From Siphonobacter aquaeclarae (GTDB taxonomy: Bacteria > Bacteroidota > Bacteroidia > Cytophagales > Spirosomataceae), in the NCBI RefSeq assembly GCF_900103285.1, contig NZ_FNGS01000008.1:178094-242093 (forward strand): DNA of 64,000 nt, read 5' to 3'. A program made the position numbers and the translations under genes. Positions 55,554 to 63,779 of this stretch are shown piece after piece. The notes below the pieces were generated by a model that was given only the letters and a program-made list of their open reading frames with translations, was not told the DNA's origin and did not search any database. Each line of letters begins with the position of its first letter. Position 1 is the first letter of the stretch.

Positions 55554-55705
55554 GTTGCAAACAATTTTGCCGGCTGGCGAATTTTCAATATAAAAATTGC
55601 AAAAGAAGAAGGTGGTTTTTGATAAATTGGCAATACTATGCCGCGTCTTTCAAAAAAGACAAAATTTTGTTTCTTGATTTCTTGGAATTAAAAAATAGAT
55701 GCCGT

Positions 55706-55713
55706 TACCTTTG
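55706..55713 (+). promoter_or_regulatory. ilv operon promoter (-7 box)
   Basis: TACCTTTG matches the consensus; CTTG about 21 nt upstream is a near -33 box. Transcription would begin about 30 nt before the leader peptide. Confidence 0.6.
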
Positions 55714-55751
55714 CGATACGCCTGTCCGAAAACGGCAAAATTCAATTCCTG

Positions 55752-55817
55752 ATGATTCGTTTCGCTTCAAATATTCTTGTGATTATTCTCCTCGTGCTCA
55801 TCCGACAATCCGTGTGA
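55752..55817 (+). CDS. ilv leader peptide
   Basis: A 21-residue open frame, MIRFASNILVIILLVLIRQSV, ending TGA. Residues 8-17 are ten consecutive branched-chain residues (ILVIILLVLI), and 12 of 21 residues are Ile, Leu or Val. It lies between the promoter and a terminator upstream of ilvD. Its stop codon falls inside the first strand of the antiterminator. It has all the marks of a leader peptide whose translation senses charged Ile-, Leu- and Val-tRNA; the peptide itself probably has no function. It is too short for routine gene calling. Confidence 0.88.
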   Translation: MIRFASNILVIILLVLIRQSV

Positions 55818-55856
55818 GATAGGTTGATATTCACCAGAAAGGACCTTTCTCACATG
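55811..55856 (+). promoter_or_regulatory. ilv antiterminator
   Basis: Bases 55811-55823 (CGTGTGAGATAGG) pair with 55844-55856 (CCTTTCTCACATG): 12 of 13 positions, including one G-U. The second strand takes bases 55844-55851 of the terminator's left arm, so the two structures exclude each other. The first strand covers the GTG TGA end of the leader peptide. Confidence 0.8.
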
Positions 55857-55873
55857 ACGAGAAAGGTCTTTTT
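55842..55873 (+). terminator. ilv attenuator (rho-independent terminator)
   Basis: A perfect 10-bp stem, GACCTTTCTC (55842-55851) with GAGAAAGGTC (55859-55868), a 7-nt loop, then five T. It lies 24 bp after the leader peptide stop and about 170 bp before ilvD, so it can only act as an attenuator. Confidence 0.9.
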
Positions 55874-56044
55874 GTTATCGGTCCATCCGAGTCTTAGAAT
55901 AAGGCAAGAATTATTTGATAAATGCAATTATCCGGGCTGTTTGACGCGCGTCGCTGACGACAGACATCGTCTGTGAAAAGTAGTTTTCCGGTGAACGCCG
56001 AGACGGGTCCGTTTACCTTTTTTCCGGTTTATCAACGAGTTAAG

Positions 56045-57736
56045 ATGGCAATCGAAACCACCCCCCTGAACCGTTATTCACGCGTCCTGACGCAGGAAGT
56101 CACAAACCCGGCCGCACAGGCCATGCTCTACGGAGTCGGCCTGACCGAGGAAGACATGAGCAAACCCCAGATCGGCATTGCCAGCACGGGGTACGAGGGA
56201 AACACTTGTAACATGCACCTGAACGGACTTTCCGTTCACGTCAAAAAAGGGGTACAGGCCAACGGGCTCGTCGGACTTATCTTCAACACCATCGGGGTAT
56301 CCGACGGGATGACCAACGGTAATGACGGGATGAGCTACTCCCTCCCCAGCCGCGACATCATCGCCGATTCCATCGAAGACGTAGTGGCTGCCCAGTGGTA
56401 CGACGGCGTGATTACGGTGGTTGGGTGCGACAAAAACATGCCCGGCGCGATCATGGCAATGGCCCGCCTGAACCGCCCTTCCATCATGGTCTATGGCGGA
56501 ACGATCCGCACCGGCCTCTGGAAAGGACAGAAGCTGGATATTATTTCGGCTTTTGAAGCGCTCGGCCGCAAGTTTGCCGGAACGATTTCAGACGAAGATT
56601 ACAAAGGCGTCATCCAGAACGCAATCCCCGGACAGGGAGCCTGCGGCGGGATGTATACCGCTAATACCATGGCCTCCAGCATCGAAGCACTCGGTCTGAG
56701 CCTTCCCAACTCGAGTACCTTCCCGGCCACGCACGAGGGCAAACAGGCGGAATGCCTGGCTGTCGGCGCGGCGATGAAGAAACTCCTCGAACTGGACCTG
56801 AAACCCCGGGATATCATTACCCGAAAGTCGCTCGAAAACGCTCTGACGGTAGTGATTGCCCTCGGCGGATCGACGAACGCCGTTCTCCACTACCTCGCGA
56901 TTGCCCATGCAGCCGGGGTAGAATTCACCCTGAAAGATATACAGGATATCAGCGACCGCACGCCGCTGATCGCGGATCTGAAGCCGTCCGGTAAGTATTT
57001 CATGGAAGATATGCTTGCCATCGGCGGCGTACCGGCTGTCATGAAATACCTCCTGAAAAAAGGATACCTCCACGGCGATTGCATGACGATCACCGGTAAA
57101 ACCATCGCTGAAAACCTGGAAACCGAGCCGGATCTCGATTTCGATACCCAGAAAATCGTCTTCCCGGTGGAATCTCCGCTGAAGCCCAACGGTCACCTTC
57201 AGATTCTGTACGGAAACCTGGCGCCGACCGGAGCCGTCGCGAAGATTACCGGCAAGGAAGGAGAGCGTTTTGAAGGAATCGCGAAGGTATGTGACAAGGA
57301 AGAAGCGCTTATGGAGGCGTTGGCCAACAAGGAAATTCAGCCCGGAACGGTCATCGTTATCCGGTACGAAGGACCCAAGGGCGGACCGGGTATGCCGGAA
57401 ATGCTCAAGCCGACTTCAGCGGTAATGGGTGCGGGTCTCGGTAACTCGGTCGCGATGATTACCGACGGCCGTTTCTCCGGAGGTACGCACGGATTTGTCG
57501 TTGGCCACATTACGCCGGAAGCATTTGACGGCGGCCCGATTGCCCTCGTTCAGGATGGAGACCGGATTACCATTGATGCGGTTAACAACCTGCTTCAGGT
57601 ACACATTTCAGACGAAGAAATGGAAGCCCGGAGACAAGCCTGGGTAGCGCCGGAAAGCCCGTTCAAACAGGGCGTTCTGCGGAAATACATCAAGAACGTA
57701 TCGTCCGCCAGCCAGGGTTGCGTCACCGATTTGTAA
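56045..57736 (+). CDS. ilvD: dihydroxy-acid dehydratase IlvD
   Basis: IlvD dehydrates dihydroxyacids to the 2-keto precursors of valine and isoleucine and needs an iron-sulfur cluster. The 563-residue protein has the cluster cysteines in EGNTCNMH (Cys55), [10 protein letters not shown] (Cys128) and [14 protein letters not shown] (Cys200), and C-terminal [16 protein letters not shown]. The frame opens 24 codons earlier, but [17 protein letters not shown] is the family start. It is the first structural gene of the ilv operon, under the attenuator. Confidence 0.97.
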
Positions 57737-57779: not shown

Positions 57780-59522
57780 ATGGCACACCAGAAACAAACC
57801 GCTGCCGAGGTTTTGGAAGAGGCCTCTCAACGCACCGTCACCGGCGCCCATGCCCTGATGCTTTCGTTGCTGGCCGAGGGCGTGGACACCTTGTTCGGGT
57901 ACCCCGGCGGGGCGATCATGCCTACGTATGACGCGCTGTACGATTACCGGGATGTCCTTCGTCACATCCTGGTCCGTCACGAGCAGGGAGCCGGTCACGC
58001 GGCTCAGGGATATGCCCGGCTGCAGAACAAGGCCGGCGTGGCCCTGGTAACGTCCGGACCGGGCGCGACCAACCTCATGACGCCGATCTGCGACGCGCTG
58101 CTCGACTCTACCCCTATGGTGTGCATTGTGGGTCAGGTATATAACAAGCTCCTCGGAACCGACGCGTTTCAGGAAGCCGATGTGATTGGCATGACCATGC
58201 CGATTACGAAGTGGAACTACCAGATTACGAGCGCCGACGAAGTGCCCGAAATCCTGGCAAAGGCCTTTTACATTGCCCAGACGGGCCGCCCCGGGCCGGT
58301 TGTGCTCGACTTCACCCGGACGGCGCAGATGGAGCTCATGACCCGCCCGTTCTCCTATCAGAAATGCGAGACGATGGTGAGCTATCACCCGCGGACGGTG
58401 CCGAAGGACGACCAGATCAGGGCGGCCGCCGAGCTCATCAACAAGGCGAAAAAGCCCTATATCCTCGCCGGCCACGGTATTCTGATTTCGCAGGCGGAAG
58501 CTGAACTGAAGGCGTTTGCCGAGAAGTCGGGTATTCCCGTTGCGACGACGCTCCTCGGGATGTCGGCAATTGATGCCGATCACCCGAACTATGTCGGCTG
58601 GCTGGGTATGCACGGCAACTACGGAACGAACGTCCTGACAAACGAATGCGACGTCCTGATCGCGATCGGGATGCGTTTTGACGACCGGGTAACCGGCGAT
58701 CTGAGCCAGTATGCCCGTCAGGCGAAAGTGGTACACATCGAAATCGATCCGGCAGAGATCGACAAGAATGTGAAAGCCACCGCGCCCGTTGTCGGCGATG
58801 CGAAGGAAGCCCTGAAGGCGCTGCTGCCGCTGATCGACGAGAAATCGCACCCGGAGTGGCGGGACGAGTTCCGCAAGTATGACGTCATTGAAGAAGAGAA
58901 GATCACCCGCCGGACGTTGTTTCACGACGGTGAGCATATCAAAATGGGCGAGGCCGTTGCCCTGCTCTCCGAACTGACCAAAGGAGAGGCTGTCACGGTA
59001 ACCGACGTAGGGCAGCACCAGATGATTGCGAACCGGTACTATCGGTTCAAGAAGCATAATTCCATTGTGACCTCGGGAGGCGCCGGTACGATGGGCTTCG
59101 CCCTTCCGGCGGCGCTGGGAGCGAAAGTTGGCGCGCCTGACCGCCAGGTAGTTGCCATCATCGGCGACGGCGGCTTCCAGATGACGCTTCAGGAGCTGGC
59201 GACGATCTGGCAGGAAAACCTGAACGTCAAAATCCTTATCCTGAATAATAACTTCCTCGGGATGGTTCGCCAGTGGCAGCAGTTGTTTTTCGACAACCGT
59301 TACAGCTTTGTGGACATCAAAAATCCCGATTTTGTGACGATCGCCAAAGGTTTCCACATCGAAGGGCATACGTGCCGCGAGCGGGGAGAGCTGCGGGCAT
59401 CGCTCGAAAAGATGCTGAATCACGACGGCGCATACCTGCTCGAAGTGATTTGCGAGAAGGAAGAAAACGTATTTCCCATGGTACCGGCCGGGCAGGCTGT
59501 CGACAAGATCCGTTTGGAGTAG
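57780..59522 (+). CDS. ilvB: acetolactate synthase, large (catalytic) subunit
   Basis: It condenses pyruvate with pyruvate or 2-ketobutyrate to acetohydroxyacids, using thiamine diphosphate and FAD. The 580 residues show VDTLFGYPGGAIMPTYDAL, the catalytic Glu68 in VRHEQGAGHAAQGYAR, SGPGATNLMT, and the ThDP/Mg motif from GDGG (462-465) to LNNN. It lies 43 bp after ilvD and 14 bp before the small subunit gene. Confidence 0.97.
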   Translation: MAHQKQTAAEVLEEASQRTVTGAHALMLSLLAEGVDTLFGYPGGAIMPTYDALYDYRDVLRHILVRHEQGAGHAAQGYARLQNKAGVALVTSGPGATNLMTPICDALLDSTPMVCIVGQVYNKLLGTDAFQEADVIGMTMPITKWNYQITSADEVPEILAKAFYIAQTGRPGPVVLDFTRTAQMELMTRPFSYQKCETMVSYHPRTVPKDDQIRAAAELINKAKKPYILAGHGILISQAEAELKAFAEKSGIPVATTLLGMSAIDADHPNYVGWLGMHGNYGTNVLTNECDVLIAIGMRFDDRVTGDLSQYARQAKVVHIEIDPAEIDKNVKATAPVVGDAKEALKALLPLIDEKSHPEWRDEFRKYDVIEEEKITRRTLFHDGEHIKMGEAVALLSELTKGEAVTVTDVGQHQMIANRYYRFKKHNSIVTSGGAGTMGFALPAALGAKVGAPDRQVVAIIGDGGFQMTLQELATIWQENLNVKILILNNNFLGMVRQWQQLFFDNRYSFVDIKNPDFVTIAKGFHIEGHTCRERGELRASLEKMLNHDGAYLLEVICEKEENVFPMVPAGQAVDKIRLE

Positions 59523-59536
59523 AATCCTGAAAAACC

Positions 59537-60070
59537 ATGACAAACTACACCATTTCGATATTTACCACCAACACGGTGGGGTTATTGAACCGCATTACGA
59601 TCGTGTTTACCCGTCGCCGGCTGAACATCGAATCACTGACGGTCTGCGAAACCGAACGGAAGGGCGTTTCACGGTTTACGATCGTGCTCAAGTCGGAAAC
59701 CCGGGAGCAGGTCGAAAAACTGGTACGCCAGATCCGGAAGATTGTCGACGTACTGGCAGTCTACGGGTACCTCAACGAAGACATCGTCTACCACGAAACG
59801 GCGCTGTTTAAGGTATCGACGCCGCTGGGCGGTCCTCAGCTCGACATTGAGCGTGTCAACAAGGATTTCAACGCCTGGGTTGTACATTGGGGCGCCGATT
59901 ACGTCATCATCGAGAAATCGGGGACGGAAGCCGAAATCATGGAATTCTACCACTACATCAAACCTCAGGGAATCCTCGAGTTCGTCCGCTCCGGCCGCAT
60001 CAGCGTGTCGAAGGAGGAAAAAGGCCTCGTTGAATATTTACCGGAGGAAGGGGTGTGGGAGATTGCATAA
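59537..60070 (+). CDS. ilvN: acetolactate synthase, small (regulatory) subunit
   Basis: A 177-residue regulatory subunit that stimulates IlvB and gives valine feedback control. The N-terminal ACT domain reads YTISIFTTNTVGLLNRITIVFTRRRLNIESLTVCETERKGVSRFTIVL (4-51). The C-terminal ALS_ss_C-type domain follows (about 85-165, with FSTPLGG-like FKVSTPLGG and IMEFYHYIKPQGILEFVRSGRI). The name ilvH would serve equally. A heptad-repeat hairpin separates it from ilvC. Confidence 0.95.
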   Translation: MTNYTISIFTTNTVGLLNRITIVFTRRRLNIESLTVCETERKGVSRFTIVLKSETREQVEKLVRQIRKIVDVLAVYGYLNEDIVYHETALFKVSTPLGGPQLDIERVNKDFNAWVVHWGADYVIIEKSGTEAEIMEFYHYIKPQGILEFVRSGRISVSKEEKGLVEYLPEEGVWEIA

Positions 60071-60071
60071 C

Positions 60072-60150
60072 GGGTTTTCAGTTTCGGAGTTTACAGTTTT
60101 CTGTTGAAAGACGGCAGAACTGAAAACCGAAAACCGAAGACCGAAAACTC
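60072..60150. repeat. 7-nt-phased inverted repeat between ilvN and ilvC
   Basis: The left arm (60072-60105) has GTTTTCA/GTTTACA/GTTTTCT heptamers; the right arm (60118-60150) has CTGAAAA, CCGAAAA, CCGAAGA, CCGAAAA. The arms are imperfect complements around a loop of about 12 nt. No T-run follows. The element is inside the operon. Confidence 0.85.
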
Positions 60151-60184
60151 TAATTCTTTAGTACCACCAAAAAATCAATTCAAA

Positions 60185-61231
60185 ATGGCAAAGTTGAACT
60201 TCGGCGGAGTCGAAGAAGAAGTAGTCACCCGGGAAGAGTTTCCCCTTGAGAAAGCCCGTGAAGTACTCAAAGACGACGTAATTGCTGTCATCGGTTACGG
60301 TGTTCAGGGACCTGGCCAGGGCCTGAACATGAAAGACAACGGTTTCAACGTCATCGTGGGTCAGCGGAAAAATTCCAAGACCTGGGACAAGGCAGTTGCC
60401 GACGGTTGGGTTCCGGGTGAGACCCTCTTCGACATCGAAGAAGCACTGGAAAAAGGTACGGTTATCTGCTACCTCCTTTCTGACGCTGCCCAGATTGCCC
60501 TCTGGCCGACCGTGAAGAAGCACCTCACGCCCGGCAAAACCCTGTACTTCTCGCACGGTTTCGGCGTAACCTACAAAGACCAGACGGGTATCATTCCTCC
60601 GGCCGACGTAGACGTGATCCTCGTGGCTCCGAAGGGCTCAGGTACGTCTCTCCGCCGCCTCTTCGTAGAAGGCAAAGGACTGAACTCCAGCTTCGCCATC
60701 TATCAGGATGCAACCGGCAAAGCGCGTGAGCGCGTCATCGCCATGGGTATCGGCGTAGGTTCAGGTTACCTGTTCCAGACCGACTTCTACAAGGAAGTAA
60801 CGTCTGACCTCACCGGCGAGCGCGGTACCCTCATGGGTGCTATCCAGGGCATCTTCGCGGCTCAGTACGAAGTACTCCGCGAAAACGGCCACTCTCCGTC
60901 TGAAGCGTTCAACGAAACGGTAGAAGAACTCACCCAGTCACTCATGCCCCTCGTTGCCGAGAACGGTATGGACTGGATGTACGCCAACTGCTCAACGACC
61001 GCACAACGCGGCGCTCTCGACTGGTGGAAGCCCTTCAAGGAAGCTACCAAGCCCGTCTTCGAAAAACTGTACAACTCCGTTAAATCCGGCGAACAGGCTC
61101 AGATCTCCATCACCCGTAACTCACAACCGGATTACCGTGAGAAACTGGAAGTGGAACTGGCCGAACTCCGTGAATCAGAAATGTGGAAAGCCGGAGCAAC
61201 CGTTCGCAGCCTGCGCCCCGAACGTAGCTAG
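60185..61231 (+). CDS. ilvC: ketol-acid reductoisomerase IlvC (class I)
   Basis: IlvC isomerises and reduces acetohydroxyacids to dihydroxyacids with NAD(P)H. The 348 residues are the short class I type. The Rossmann motif is AVIGYGVQGPGQGLN (35-48), with Pro where many enzymes have His/Ala; this form is common in Bacteroidota. LVAPKGSGTSLRRLF and the knotted C-terminal domain (GERGTLMGAIQGIFAAQYEVL) follow. The ATG at 60185 begins the conserved sequence. Confidence 0.96.
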   Translation: MAKLNFGGVEEEVVTREEFPLEKAREVLKDDVIAVIGYGVQGPGQGLNMKDNGFNVIVGQRKNSKTWDKAVADGWVPGETLFDIEEALEKGTVICYLLSDAAQIALWPTVKKHLTPGKTLYFSHGFGVTYKDQTGIIPPADVDVILVAPKGSGTSLRRLFVEGKGLNSSFAIYQDATGKARERVIAMGIGVGSGYLFQTDFYKEVTSDLTGERGTLMGAIQGIFAAQYEVLRENGHSPSEAFNETVEELTQSLMPLVAENGMDWMYANCSTTAQRGALDWWKPFKEATKPVFEKLYNSVKSGEQAQISITRNSQPDYREKLEVELAELRESEMWKAGATVRSLRPERS

Positions 61232-61247
61232 TTCTTAACCGGAACAG

Positions 61248-61284
61248 GAGAATGGGTGGGCGTTCGTTCACCCATTCTCGTTTT
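61248..61284 (+). terminator. hairpin after ilvC, possible partial terminator
   Basis: A perfect 11-bp stem, GAGAATGGGTG (61248-61258) with CACCCATTCTC (61269-61279), 10-nt loop, followed by GTTTTGGGG. The T-run is short, so it may give partial termination or protect the upstream mRNA. Confidence 0.5.
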
Positions 61285-61286
61285 GG

Positions 61287-61363
61287 GGTTTTCGGTTTTT
61301 TGTCTTCTGTTTTCCGTTTTGGGCGTTGCCTAACTGAAAACAGAAGGCAGAAAACTGAAAACC
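61287..61363. repeat. 7-nt-phased inverted repeat between ilvC and ilvA
   Basis: Arms of 32 nt (61287-61318 and 61332-61363) match at 28 of 32 positions around a 13-nt loop. Right-arm heptamers are CTGAAAA, CAGAAGG, CAGAAAA, CTGAAAA. It ends 14 bp before the ilvA ATG. Confidence 0.88.
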
Positions 61364-61377
61364 AATTTTCCCCGAGG

Positions 61378-62643
61378 ATGAAAGAGACCGAAGAAGTACC
61401 CGTTTTCCCCCAGCTCGACGACATCTTTCATGCCGCCGAACGCCTGCGCAAGGTGGTGGTACATACGCCCCTGACGCACAATCCGAATTTATCCGAACGC
61501 TTCGGAGCCAATATCTACCTGAAGCGCGAAGACCTCCAGCTCGTCCGTTCCTTCAAAATCCGCGGAGCCTATAACTCCATGGCCAAAATGCCGCCCGAAG
61601 CCCTGGCGAAGGGCGTCGTGTGCGCCAGTGCCGGAAACCATGCCCAGGGGCTGGCCTACGCCTGCCGCAGCATGGGCGTAAAAGGGACGATTTTTATGCC
61701 GAGTACGACGCCCAATCAGAAAGTCAAGCAGGTCAAGCTGTTTGGCAAGGAAGAAGTGGAAGTGGTACTGACGGGCGATACCTACGACGATGCCTACGAT
61801 GCCGCCCGCCAGTTTGAAAAGGAACACCAGGCGACCTTCGTTCACCCGTTTGACGACTTTGGTGTGATTGAAGGGCAGGGGACTGTGGGTCTCGAAATTT
61901 TCAAGGATGCCGATTTCAAGATCGATTATGTGCTGTTTTCGATCGGTGGAGGCGGACTGGCCTCCGGCATCGCGACGGCGATCCGCCCGCTTTCTCCGCA
62001 TACCCGTCTGATCGGTGTAGAGCCGGCCGGGGCCGCTTCAATGCAGGCCTCTCTCCGGCAGGGAGAAGTAGTGACGCTTGATGATATCGACAAGTTCGTG
62101 GACGGTGCTGCCGTCAAACGGGTAGGCGATATGACCTACCGGATCTGCCGGGATAACCTCGATGGCATCGTACCTGTGCCGGAAGGCAAGGTATGTACGA
62201 CCATCATGCAGCTGTATAACGAAGAGGCGATTGTAGCCGAACCGGCCGGCGCCCTGAGTATAGCCGCGCTTGATTTTCTGAAAGATGAAATCCGTGGAAA
62301 AAACGTCGTCTGCCTCGTCAGCGGCGGTAACAATGATATTACCCGGATGGAAGAGATCAAGGAACGGTCTCTCCTCTATGAAGGCCTGAAACACTATTTC
62401 ATCATCCGGTTCCCGCAGCGGGCCGGCGCCTTCCGGGAGTTCCTGAACGTACTTGGCCCGACCGACGACATTACCCGGTTTGAGTATGTCAAGAAAACCA
62501 ACCGCGAGCAGGGGCCTGCCATCGTGGGTATTGAATTGAAATCCAGGAGTGATTTTGCCAGCCTTATCCAACGCATGGATAACGCCAAAATCACCTATGA
62601 ATACCTGAACGACAAGCCGGATTTGTATGGAATGCTGGTTTGA
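61378..62643 (+). CDS. ilvA: threonine ammonia-lyase (threonine deaminase) IlvA
   Basis: IlvA deaminates threonine to 2-ketobutyrate, the entry into isoleucine synthesis. The 421-residue PLP enzyme has KREDLQLVRSFKIRGAYNSM with Schiff-base Lys60, CASAGNHAQGLAYA, the phosphate-binding SIGGGGLASG, and SGGNND. The C-terminal part (about 340-421, LKHYFIIRFPQRAGAFREFLNVLG) is a single ACT-like domain, the short form seen in many Gram-positive and Bacteroidota enzymes. It completes the operon ilvDBNCA; no ilvE or leu gene is present here. Confidence 0.96.
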   Translation: MKETEEVPVFPQLDDIFHAAERLRKVVVHTPLTHNPNLSERFGANIYLKREDLQLVRSFKIRGAYNSMAKMPPEALAKGVVCASAGNHAQGLAYACRSMGVKGTIFMPSTTPNQKVKQVKLFGKEEVEVVLTGDTYDDAYDAARQFEKEHQATFVHPFDDFGVIEGQGTVGLEIFKDADFKIDYVLFSIGGGGLASGIATAIRPLSPHTRLIGVEPAGAASMQASLRQGEVVTLDDIDKFVDGAAVKRVGDMTYRICRDNLDGIVPVPEGKVCTTIMQLYNEEAIVAEPAGALSIAALDFLKDEIRGKNVVCLVSGGNNDITRMEEIKERSLLYEGLKHYFIIRFPQRAGAFREFLNVLGPTDDITRFEYVKKTNREQGPAIVGIELKSRSDFASLIQRMDNAKITYEYLNDKPDLYGMLV

Positions 62644-62675: not shown

Positions 62676-63779
62676 ATGAAGAGACAGTTGTTTCTTTTTC
62701 TGTTTGCCCTTTTTGCTTTTCCAACTCTTGCGCAGGAGCGCTACAAACCCGGATACATTGTTTCGTTGAACGGAGATACGTTGAAAGGCCATTTACTATA
62801 TGAAGACTGGGAGCATAGTCCGGTTGAAGTGCGGTTTAAAAACCCCGACGGAGAAGCCAAGACACTGACCCCGACCGATATCAAGGCTTTTTTTGTGGAG
62901 AAGGAGAATTACGAAACCCTGAACGCCCGGATATTGCAAATAGCAGACATGGCGTATGCCACTCCTCCCCAGCATTACGAGATGTTCCGGCTATTTAGCC
63001 GCAGGATGTGGAAAGGCGGAGACATTACCTTGTATCTGGTTCAGATTGACGGCGAAAACAAACAGCGGCTACTCATTCAGCGGGACGGAGAGCCGATGGA
63101 GCTGAACTACTTCCGGTATAAGAGAATGATCAATGGAAAACTGTATTACCAGGAAGTAAGCGAGTATCAGGATCAGCTCGCAACACTGACGAGTGACGTG
63201 CCGGGTTTTTCAGCAAAAGTAAAAGGGTACTCTCCGGAATCGGTTGTCGCCTACCTGGAGGCCTATGCATTGGCACGTAACAGCGGAACGACATCCGGTT
63301 TATTGAAGCGGGAGAAAACGAGGTTCGCAGTCGGTCTAGGCGCAGGAGCGGAGATGTTGAATAGCGATTTTGCCTCTGGGAAGCCGAAGTTGTCGGTCGG
63401 GCTCACTGCCAGGCTGAACTTCCCGAGAGCATTTTACAACACATTTCTGAAAGTCTCCTATTTCGTAACGCCGGGTATCACAACGATCAATGGATACAAC
63501 GGACGCATCGAAACCGGAACAGGACGGGCTGCGGAGATAACATTCGGACGATACATCGGACGCGGCAACATTCAGCCGTTCTGGAACATTGGATTAGGAG
63601 CATATTCCGGGAATATGTCTGTATCCGGGGTTATTTTTCCCGCCCTTGGCATTGCGTACAAAAAGAGCCTGGAAATCGACGTGTCTCATTTTATCAATTT
63701 CTGGGGTGGTACGACTGAAAACTCCCGGTTTTTCATGCCTGCACGCGTAGCAGTTCATTATTACTATTCGTTTAAGTGA
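62676..63779 (+). CDS. secreted hypothetical protein with C-terminal barrel-like region
   Basis: A 367-residue protein with a Sec signal (MKRQLFLFLFALFAFPTLAQ). The first 100 residues (YKPGYIVSLNGDTLKGHLLYEDWEHSPVEVRFKN) match a domain frequent in Cytophagales secreted proteins of unknown role. The second half (from about 205, TRFAVGLGAGAEML) consists of amphipathic strands ending in VHYYYSFK, as in small outer-membrane barrels. It starts 32 bp after ilvA with no terminator between them, but a link to amino-acid synthesis is doubtful. Confidence 0.7.
   Translation: MKRQLFLFLFALFAFPTLAQERYKPGYIVSLNGDTLKGHLLYEDWEHSPVEVRFKNPDGEAKTLTPTDIKAFFVEKENYETLNARILQIADMAYATPPQHYEMFRLFSRRMWKGGDITLYLVQIDGENKQRLLIQRDGEPMELNYFRYKRMINGKLYYQEVSEYQDQLATLTSDVPGFSAKVKGYSPESVVAYLEAYALARNSGTTSGLLKREKTRFAVGLGAGAEMLNSDFASGKPKLSVGLTARLNFPRAFYNTFLKVSYFVTPGITTINGYNGRIETGTGRAAEITFGRYIGRGNIQPFWNIGLGAYSGNMSVSGVIFPALGIAYKKSLEIDVSHFINFWGGTTENSRFFMPARVAVHYYYSFK

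Follow-up and report, generated by a model that had tools for sequence, protein, structure and literature searches.

The 340 bases upstream of ilvD in Siphonobacter aquaeclarae hold a promoter motif, a leader ORF, an antiterminator and a terminator, and very probably form a ribosome-mediated transcription attenuator: as read from the sequence, the switch probably permits the Ile/Leu/Val genes to be read only when ribosomes are short of these amino acids. The window, by which we mean the whole 64-kb stretch of DNA analysed (G000:C11:178094-242093), comes from a genome of 6.19 Mb. On its + strand, ilvD (dihydroxy-acid dehydratase, 56045-57736; TIGR00110) is the first gene of the operon and is followed by ilvB (57780-59522; TIGR00118), ilvN (59537-60070; TIGR00119), ilvC (60104-61231; TIGR00465) and ilvA (61252-62643; TIGR02079), each matching above cut-off. 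The gene spacing suggests that ilvDBNCA would be read as one transcript. Immediately 3' of ilvA is a 367-codon ORF (62676-63779) that matches nothing in Pfam or NCBIfam at E≤0.001, and leuC, leuD, a citramalate-synthase-like gene, leuB and leuA lie downstream on the same contig.

The putative Bacteroidota promoter (55682-55713, + strand) consists of TTG at 55682-55684, 21 nt, and the -7 motif TACCTTTG at 55706-55713, in what we take to be the promoter consensus of the phylum. Upstream of the leader ATG, the five same-genus elements examined, and others besides, show this arrangement of TTG, A-rich spacer and TAnnTTTG. The TAnnTTTG motif at ≤110 nt is present in 21 of the 49 family elements, one of which (L183) has it at an unlikely distance, and is lacking in 28; shuffles contain it in 10.5% of cases. 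"Family" here denotes the family grouping of the genome database searched; in the NCBI taxonomy Runella belongs to Spirosomataceae and Spirosoma to Cytophagaceae, two families of Cytophagales. The leader ORF (55752-55817, + strand) is a predicted frame of 21 codons and a stop, MIRFASNILVIILLVLIRQSV, present in 6/6 same-genus genomes. Its regulatory run is ten Ile/Leu/Val codons in a row (55773-55802, + strand), read directly as ATT CTT GTG ATT ATT CTC CTC GTG CTC ATC. Two ATG ORFs of 8-45 codons in the 64-kb window reach at least 7/10 ILV, and only the ilvD leader has a terminator behind it. An earlier sequence-only reading of this DNA had described the 21-codon peptide with its ten consecutive codons, and had placed promoter, leader, antiterminator and terminator in that order upstream of ilvDBNCA; each was found at its proposed place.

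The antiterminator pairs 55811-55825 (segment 2) with 55842-55856 (segment 3), both on the + strand and supported by folding and covariation. The duplex contains one U-U mismatch, and the fold of 55811-55858 has a predicted energy of -20.2 kcal/mol; the pairing first proposed, 55811-55823 with 55844-55856, is real and slightly too short. The intrinsic terminator (55842-55873, + strand) has a stem of 55842-55851/55859-55868, a loop at 55852-55858 and a U5 tract at 55869-55873, with a predicted energy of -15.4 kcal/mol, or about -20.0 kcal/mol with A-U extensions. Segment 3 overlaps the 5' arm and loop of the terminator, and folding bears out the proposed mutual exclusion of the two structures, which share 55842-55856. 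The entire leader region has a folding z of -3.45. A simple terminator scan missed this terminator on the + strand and reported its mirror hairpin on the - strand. The leader stop codon (55815-55817) lies inside antiterminator strand 1, as had been claimed for this locus, but only some clades keep the arrangement: in several, the stop codon is upstream of segment 2 and not inside it. Outside the family, segment 2 might sit deeper within the leader ORF.

Folding with a ribosome mask, in which the ribosome was assumed to reach about 13 nt beyond the start of the A-site codon, reproduced the suggested logic in which a stalled ribosome frees segment 2 and a ribosome at the stop codon hides it. For stalls in the run on RNA made before segment 4, the antiterminator was predicted at each codon, in shortened form at the tenth, and a ribosome placed at the stop codon gave the terminator alone. 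The model suggests that the later Leu/Val codons of the run matter most, because in equilibrium folding the antiterminator wins only with A-site codons at 55791-55797 (Leu, Val, Leu); a shortage of Leu or Val would then be expected to have a larger effect than one of Ile.

From the sequence features and their conservation, which are observed, we infer promoter use, translation, stalling, termination and a response to amino acids, as follows. RNA polymerase would start near 55720, and a ribosome would translate the 21-codon peptide. If charged Ile-, Leu- or Val-tRNA were scarce, the ribosome would stall in the ten-codon run and leave segment 2 free to pair with segment 3, so that no terminator would form and ilvDBNCA would be transcribed. 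With plentiful amino acids the ribosome would reach the stop codon and cover segment 2, the terminator would form, and transcription would end near 55873. Without translation, a candidate protector hairpin of segments 1 and 2 (55790-55823, + strand; predicted -8.6 kcal/mol) may sequester segment 2, which would also lead to termination. Folding makes this hairpin possible at the ilvD locus. The native 1:2 hairpin exceeds synonymous recodings at p≤0.05 in 16 of the 49 family elements, and at the ilvD locus p = 0.32. A 1:2 helix in one fixed register was rejected as an alignment-wide structure, having no covariation support; the protector register seems to differ between clades.

To count as a leader, an ATG frame had to span 8-45 codons, include a ten-codon ILV-rich stretch and have a hairpin plus T-run within about 110 nt behind it. 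The search covered 128 ilvD upstream regions, with 700 nt taken wherever that much was available (two of 130 regions, L013 and L033, were dropped at <400 nt). At ≥8/10 ILV, 30/128 ilvD upstreams contained one, against 0/128 in each of ten dinucleotide-shuffle sets, none on the opposite strand and one in 2394 control windows. The sole control match (L077:1428-2546, from [Flexibacter] sp. ATCC 35208) is a leader, MWVNKDNNKINHIVAQLNWAITLVVIVVVIISHQYGG, with a terminator before ilvE (TIGR01122, above cut-off), followed by ilvD; since it sits before ilvE, we count it as one more case of the leader and not as a false positive. Lowering the threshold to ≥7/10 gave 35/128 ilvD upstreams, none in the shuffles or on the opposite strand, and six control windows; at ≥6/10, a cut-off for which no shuffles were made, the figures were 42/128, two on the opposite strand and eight control windows. 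Judged on these counts, the predicted leader with its terminator before ilvD is beyond chance.

Leader and terminator are present in 6/6 same-genus genomes. Across three slightly overlapping sets of relatives, a leader at ≥7/10 ILV with a terminator was found in 19/49 ilvD upstreams of the first set, 17/80 of the named set and 34/81 further family upstreams, and was not found in the other 30, 63 and 47, respectively. Named carriers are Flavobacterium, Lutibacter, Algibacter, Meridianimaribacter, Sediminibacterium and Segetibacter; a Hymenobacter MAG, Saprospiraceae MAGs and an Ignavibacteriae MAG also carry it. In the named loci of Spirosoma and Fibrella the element was not found upstream of ilvD; the trait is therefore patchy, or the element takes another position in the operon, as it does in L077. 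That several related lineages appear to lack it would suit a decaying attenuator, in which the hairpin tunes basal read-through or mRNA stability and gives no amino-acid response here; we regard this as extremely improbable, as 6/6 same-genus genomes keep all parts and the antiterminator duplexes of the five same-genus elements tested reach -15.6 to -21.2 kcal/mol. One relative has two ilvD-like genes (G008:C2:3674988-3676666, 4274033-4275600), each in two overlapping frames, possibly through sequencing errors.

If the element is an attenuator of this kind, relatives should share the ILV-rich frame and show covariation in both stems, as the sequence-only reading had proposed to test; many but by no means all have the frame, and covariation is strong in the terminator and weaker in the antiterminator. 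The alignment contained 24 of 55 family elements: 28 were picked for a stop codon within a GTGAG motif, and L003, L136, L151 and L187 were left out as near-duplicates. The structure scored was that of the window's own sequence, a choice which favours that structure, and the counts are inflated by kinship among the sequences: in the terminator, 99.0% of cells are paired and 43 are double-change cells (0/500 shuffles), with compensatory changes at five pairs; in the antiterminator, 80.2% of cells are paired, versus 75.2% in shuffles (0/500 as high) and 33-57% in slid registers, with 23 double-change cells (1/500 shuffles) and a covariation score of 0.193 (0/500). The number of antiterminator pair types is not above shuffles (434/500 reach the native number), and by a second weak measure, the number of pairs with a double change, 23/500 shuffles reach the native value. 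A swap between A-U and U-A at columns 41-78 has its counterpart in the terminator pair 78-97, the segment-3 base covarying with both of its partners.

The segment 2/segment 3 duplex was also compared with substitutes across 65 distinct elements. Native partners have a mean energy of -16.1 kcal/mol; swapped partners average -11.2 kcal/mol, with 22% as strong as native, many of these swaps being between relatives, and segment 2 against a downstream control stretch averages -5.8 kcal/mol. The native duplex is matched by at most 5% of shuffles in 52/65 elements (45/49 from the family and 7/16 from outside it).

The codon content of the leaders follows the genes behind them. Ile, Leu and Val are all present in 59/65 ilvD leaders. 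In 47 leaders before ilvD the I, L and V counts are 171, 145 and 158; in 18 distinct leaders before leuA, three of which (L163, L258 and L269) are doubtful, they are 26, 82 and 11. The contrast has a chi-square of 61.6, uncorrected for relatedness, and the shift to Leu before leuA is not produced by the selection rule. Judged from such comparisons, the leader peptide is probably read for its codons. I, L and V also make up 0.946 of the hydrophobic residues in the leaders, versus 0.452 in hydrophobic stretches of window ORFs, a modest contrast, since an ILV rule was used to select the leaders: the same rule applied to window ORFs gave 16 stretches with a share of 0.811. We therefore give the 0.946 share less weight as evidence against a membrane peptide. 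Small membrane proteins are common, the leader peptide is very hydrophobic, and its near-exclusive I/L/V content is partly this artefact of selection; the short ORF could accordingly be read as encoding such a protein, with the hairpin as its ordinary terminator and a separate downstream promoter for ilvD. We consider that very unlikely in view of the switch of leuA leaders to Leu, the conservation of a second helix that competes with the terminator, and the recurrence of the leader before branched-chain amino acid (BCAA) genes and hardly elsewhere.

A terminator/antiterminator pair is equally what would be expected if a T-box, a riboswitch or an RNA-binding protein worked the terminator and the ORF were incidental. 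However, at gathering score an Rfam scan of the whole window returned no matches, Leu_leader, Thr_leader, His_leader, Bacteroid-trp and T-box included, and a permissive scan of three loci gave weak, chance-like matches only, with no T-box at the ilvD locus at E≤1. ILV-rich frames, moreover, recur at the same place although the stem sequences differ, and we give a switch worked without translation hardly any credence. Sub-threshold His and Thr leader matches occurred in L245 only, at a different terminator upstream of the trp locus. Across the loci of 20 relatives the single Rfam match was a SAM-II riboswitch on the other strand, upstream of the ilvD leader region (L130:2421-2525, - strand).

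A covariance model was built from the 24 family sequences. In the genome of the window, its first match is the ilvD site (E 3.8e-17, by construction, since the site is in the model), its second is a leuA leader outside the model (E 7.3e-8) and its third a plain terminator (0.003). At E≤0.01 the model matches 121/220 family genomes in 28/36 genera, numbers that include leuA leaders, chance matches and the model's own sequences. The best 29 of the listed matches all lie just upstream of ilvD in a by-eye check of position, many of them being members of the model. Another 20 matches comprise eight before leuA-like genes, two before EamA transporters, one before ilvD and one cut by a contig end; the remaining eight (E 2.7e-6 to 0.3) were rejected as plain terminators by look, with no convincing leader.

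The same genome contains further leaders. Between leuB and leuA, outside the window, lies a leuA leader, MFAQKLNLALILLSRCV, with a terminator (L131:7466-7574; G000:C11:248465-248573); its antiterminator duplex is -20.1 and its terminator -18.0, and 6/6 same-genus genomes have both leader and terminator. A trpE leader, MIISFAQAWWWQPESSVEQPCYA, with three Trp codons (L245, reverse complement 1177-1309, contig C18) has a terminator of -31.0, while the best antiterminator duplex found is only -14.9; it does not match the Rfam Bacteroid-trp model. Neither a His leader before hisG nor a Phe leader before pheA was seen in this genome, nor was a Thr/Ile leader before the homoserine dehydrogenase gene, the last a weak test in that the locus probably falls short of the gene start.

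Among nine distinct genomes examined from the Runella clade (g31), four have a tandem pair of ilv leader/terminator units ahead of ilvD. These lie in the last 480 nt before the gene in L135, L136, L138 and L185 (the L185 genome is apparently that of L052, Runella sp.), with MIIRIKNTAILVSIITPSTV-like peptides in the upstream unit. The unit nearer ilvD has ahead of it a conserved block that is also found in relatives with one unit only, and it may be transcribed from a separate promoter. In four genera (L260/L271, L266, L273 and L274), a leader whose codons include a Trp and several Leu lies, with its terminator, close upstream of an EamA-family transporter gene; such leaders were found in 3/28 homologue loci, plus L266, hinting from sequence at a role in amino-acid transport.

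Leader-peptide attenuation is a classical mechanism. The E. coli ilvGMEDA and leuABCD attenuators likewise have a leader rich in the amino acids of the pathway before an operon of that pathway, an antiterminator that shares the 5' arm of the terminator, and a stop codon near segment 2. The ilvD-locus element, unlike these enterobacterial ones, has no Rfam leader match, has ilvD first in its operon, and has a Bacteroidota-type promoter motif. The leader, the exclusive helices and their conservation all support the proposed extension of the enterobacterial ilv/leu logic to ilvDBNCA. To our knowledge, control of BCAA synthesis in Bacteroidota is poorly worked out. A comparative survey of attenuation by Lopatovskaya et al. 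(2010) reportedly exists and could include some such leaders.

The original remark that few cases had been worked out in Bacteroidota is fair, but precedents exist. Bacteroid-trp RNA (RF01692 in the table of Weinberg 2010, PMC2864571) is interpreted as a trp attenuator in PMC6414381, and by that account resembles the ilvD element as a Bacteroidota amino-acid operon leader with Trp-peptide and terminator logic; it differs in its operon, and its model matches neither the ilvD locus nor the trp leader of the same genome. A transcriptome of Flavobacterium psychrophilum gave "strong clues" that operons for amino-acid biosynthesis are preceded by attenuators of the leader-peptide type (PMC9723704). 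Phylum and proposed mechanism are the same, and the F. psychrophilum case is backed by transcript data; the section on these clues names no operons, and the main text of PMC9723704 nowhere mentions "ilv". In other phyla, Corynebacterium ilvBNC and Staphylococcus aureus ilv are described as having leader attenuators (PMC11857589, PMC10272879, PMC5794164), and by those descriptions resemble the present case as BCAA operons with an attenuator or leader peptide. The authors of a 2010 survey wrote that they knew of none shown beyond Proteobacteria and Actinobacteria, ermC excepted (PMC2965389). Among the open-access literature matches listed we found no worked ilv attenuator in Bacteroidota. The mechanism is already known and has Bacteroidota precedents in print; comparative support for an ilv case was not found among the open-access papers listed.

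We see an even chance that fast-evolving leader-peptide attenuators are a main layer of amino-acid regulation throughout Bacteroidota and Ignavibacteria, with separate ILV, Leu and Trp versions in a single genome, the ilvE case, stacked ilv pairs, an extension to a transporter, and stems that change from genus to genus under a constant logic. This turnover of the stems may be why such leaders have no Rfam family. The anatomy of the ilvD leader and its comparative support make a direct test feasible in culturable strains. Bacteroidota mostly lack Shine-Dalgarno signals, and the ilvD leader would provide a clean case of transcription-translation coupling in such a phylum, together with a comparative set in which the logic of an attenuator persists while its sequence is replaced.
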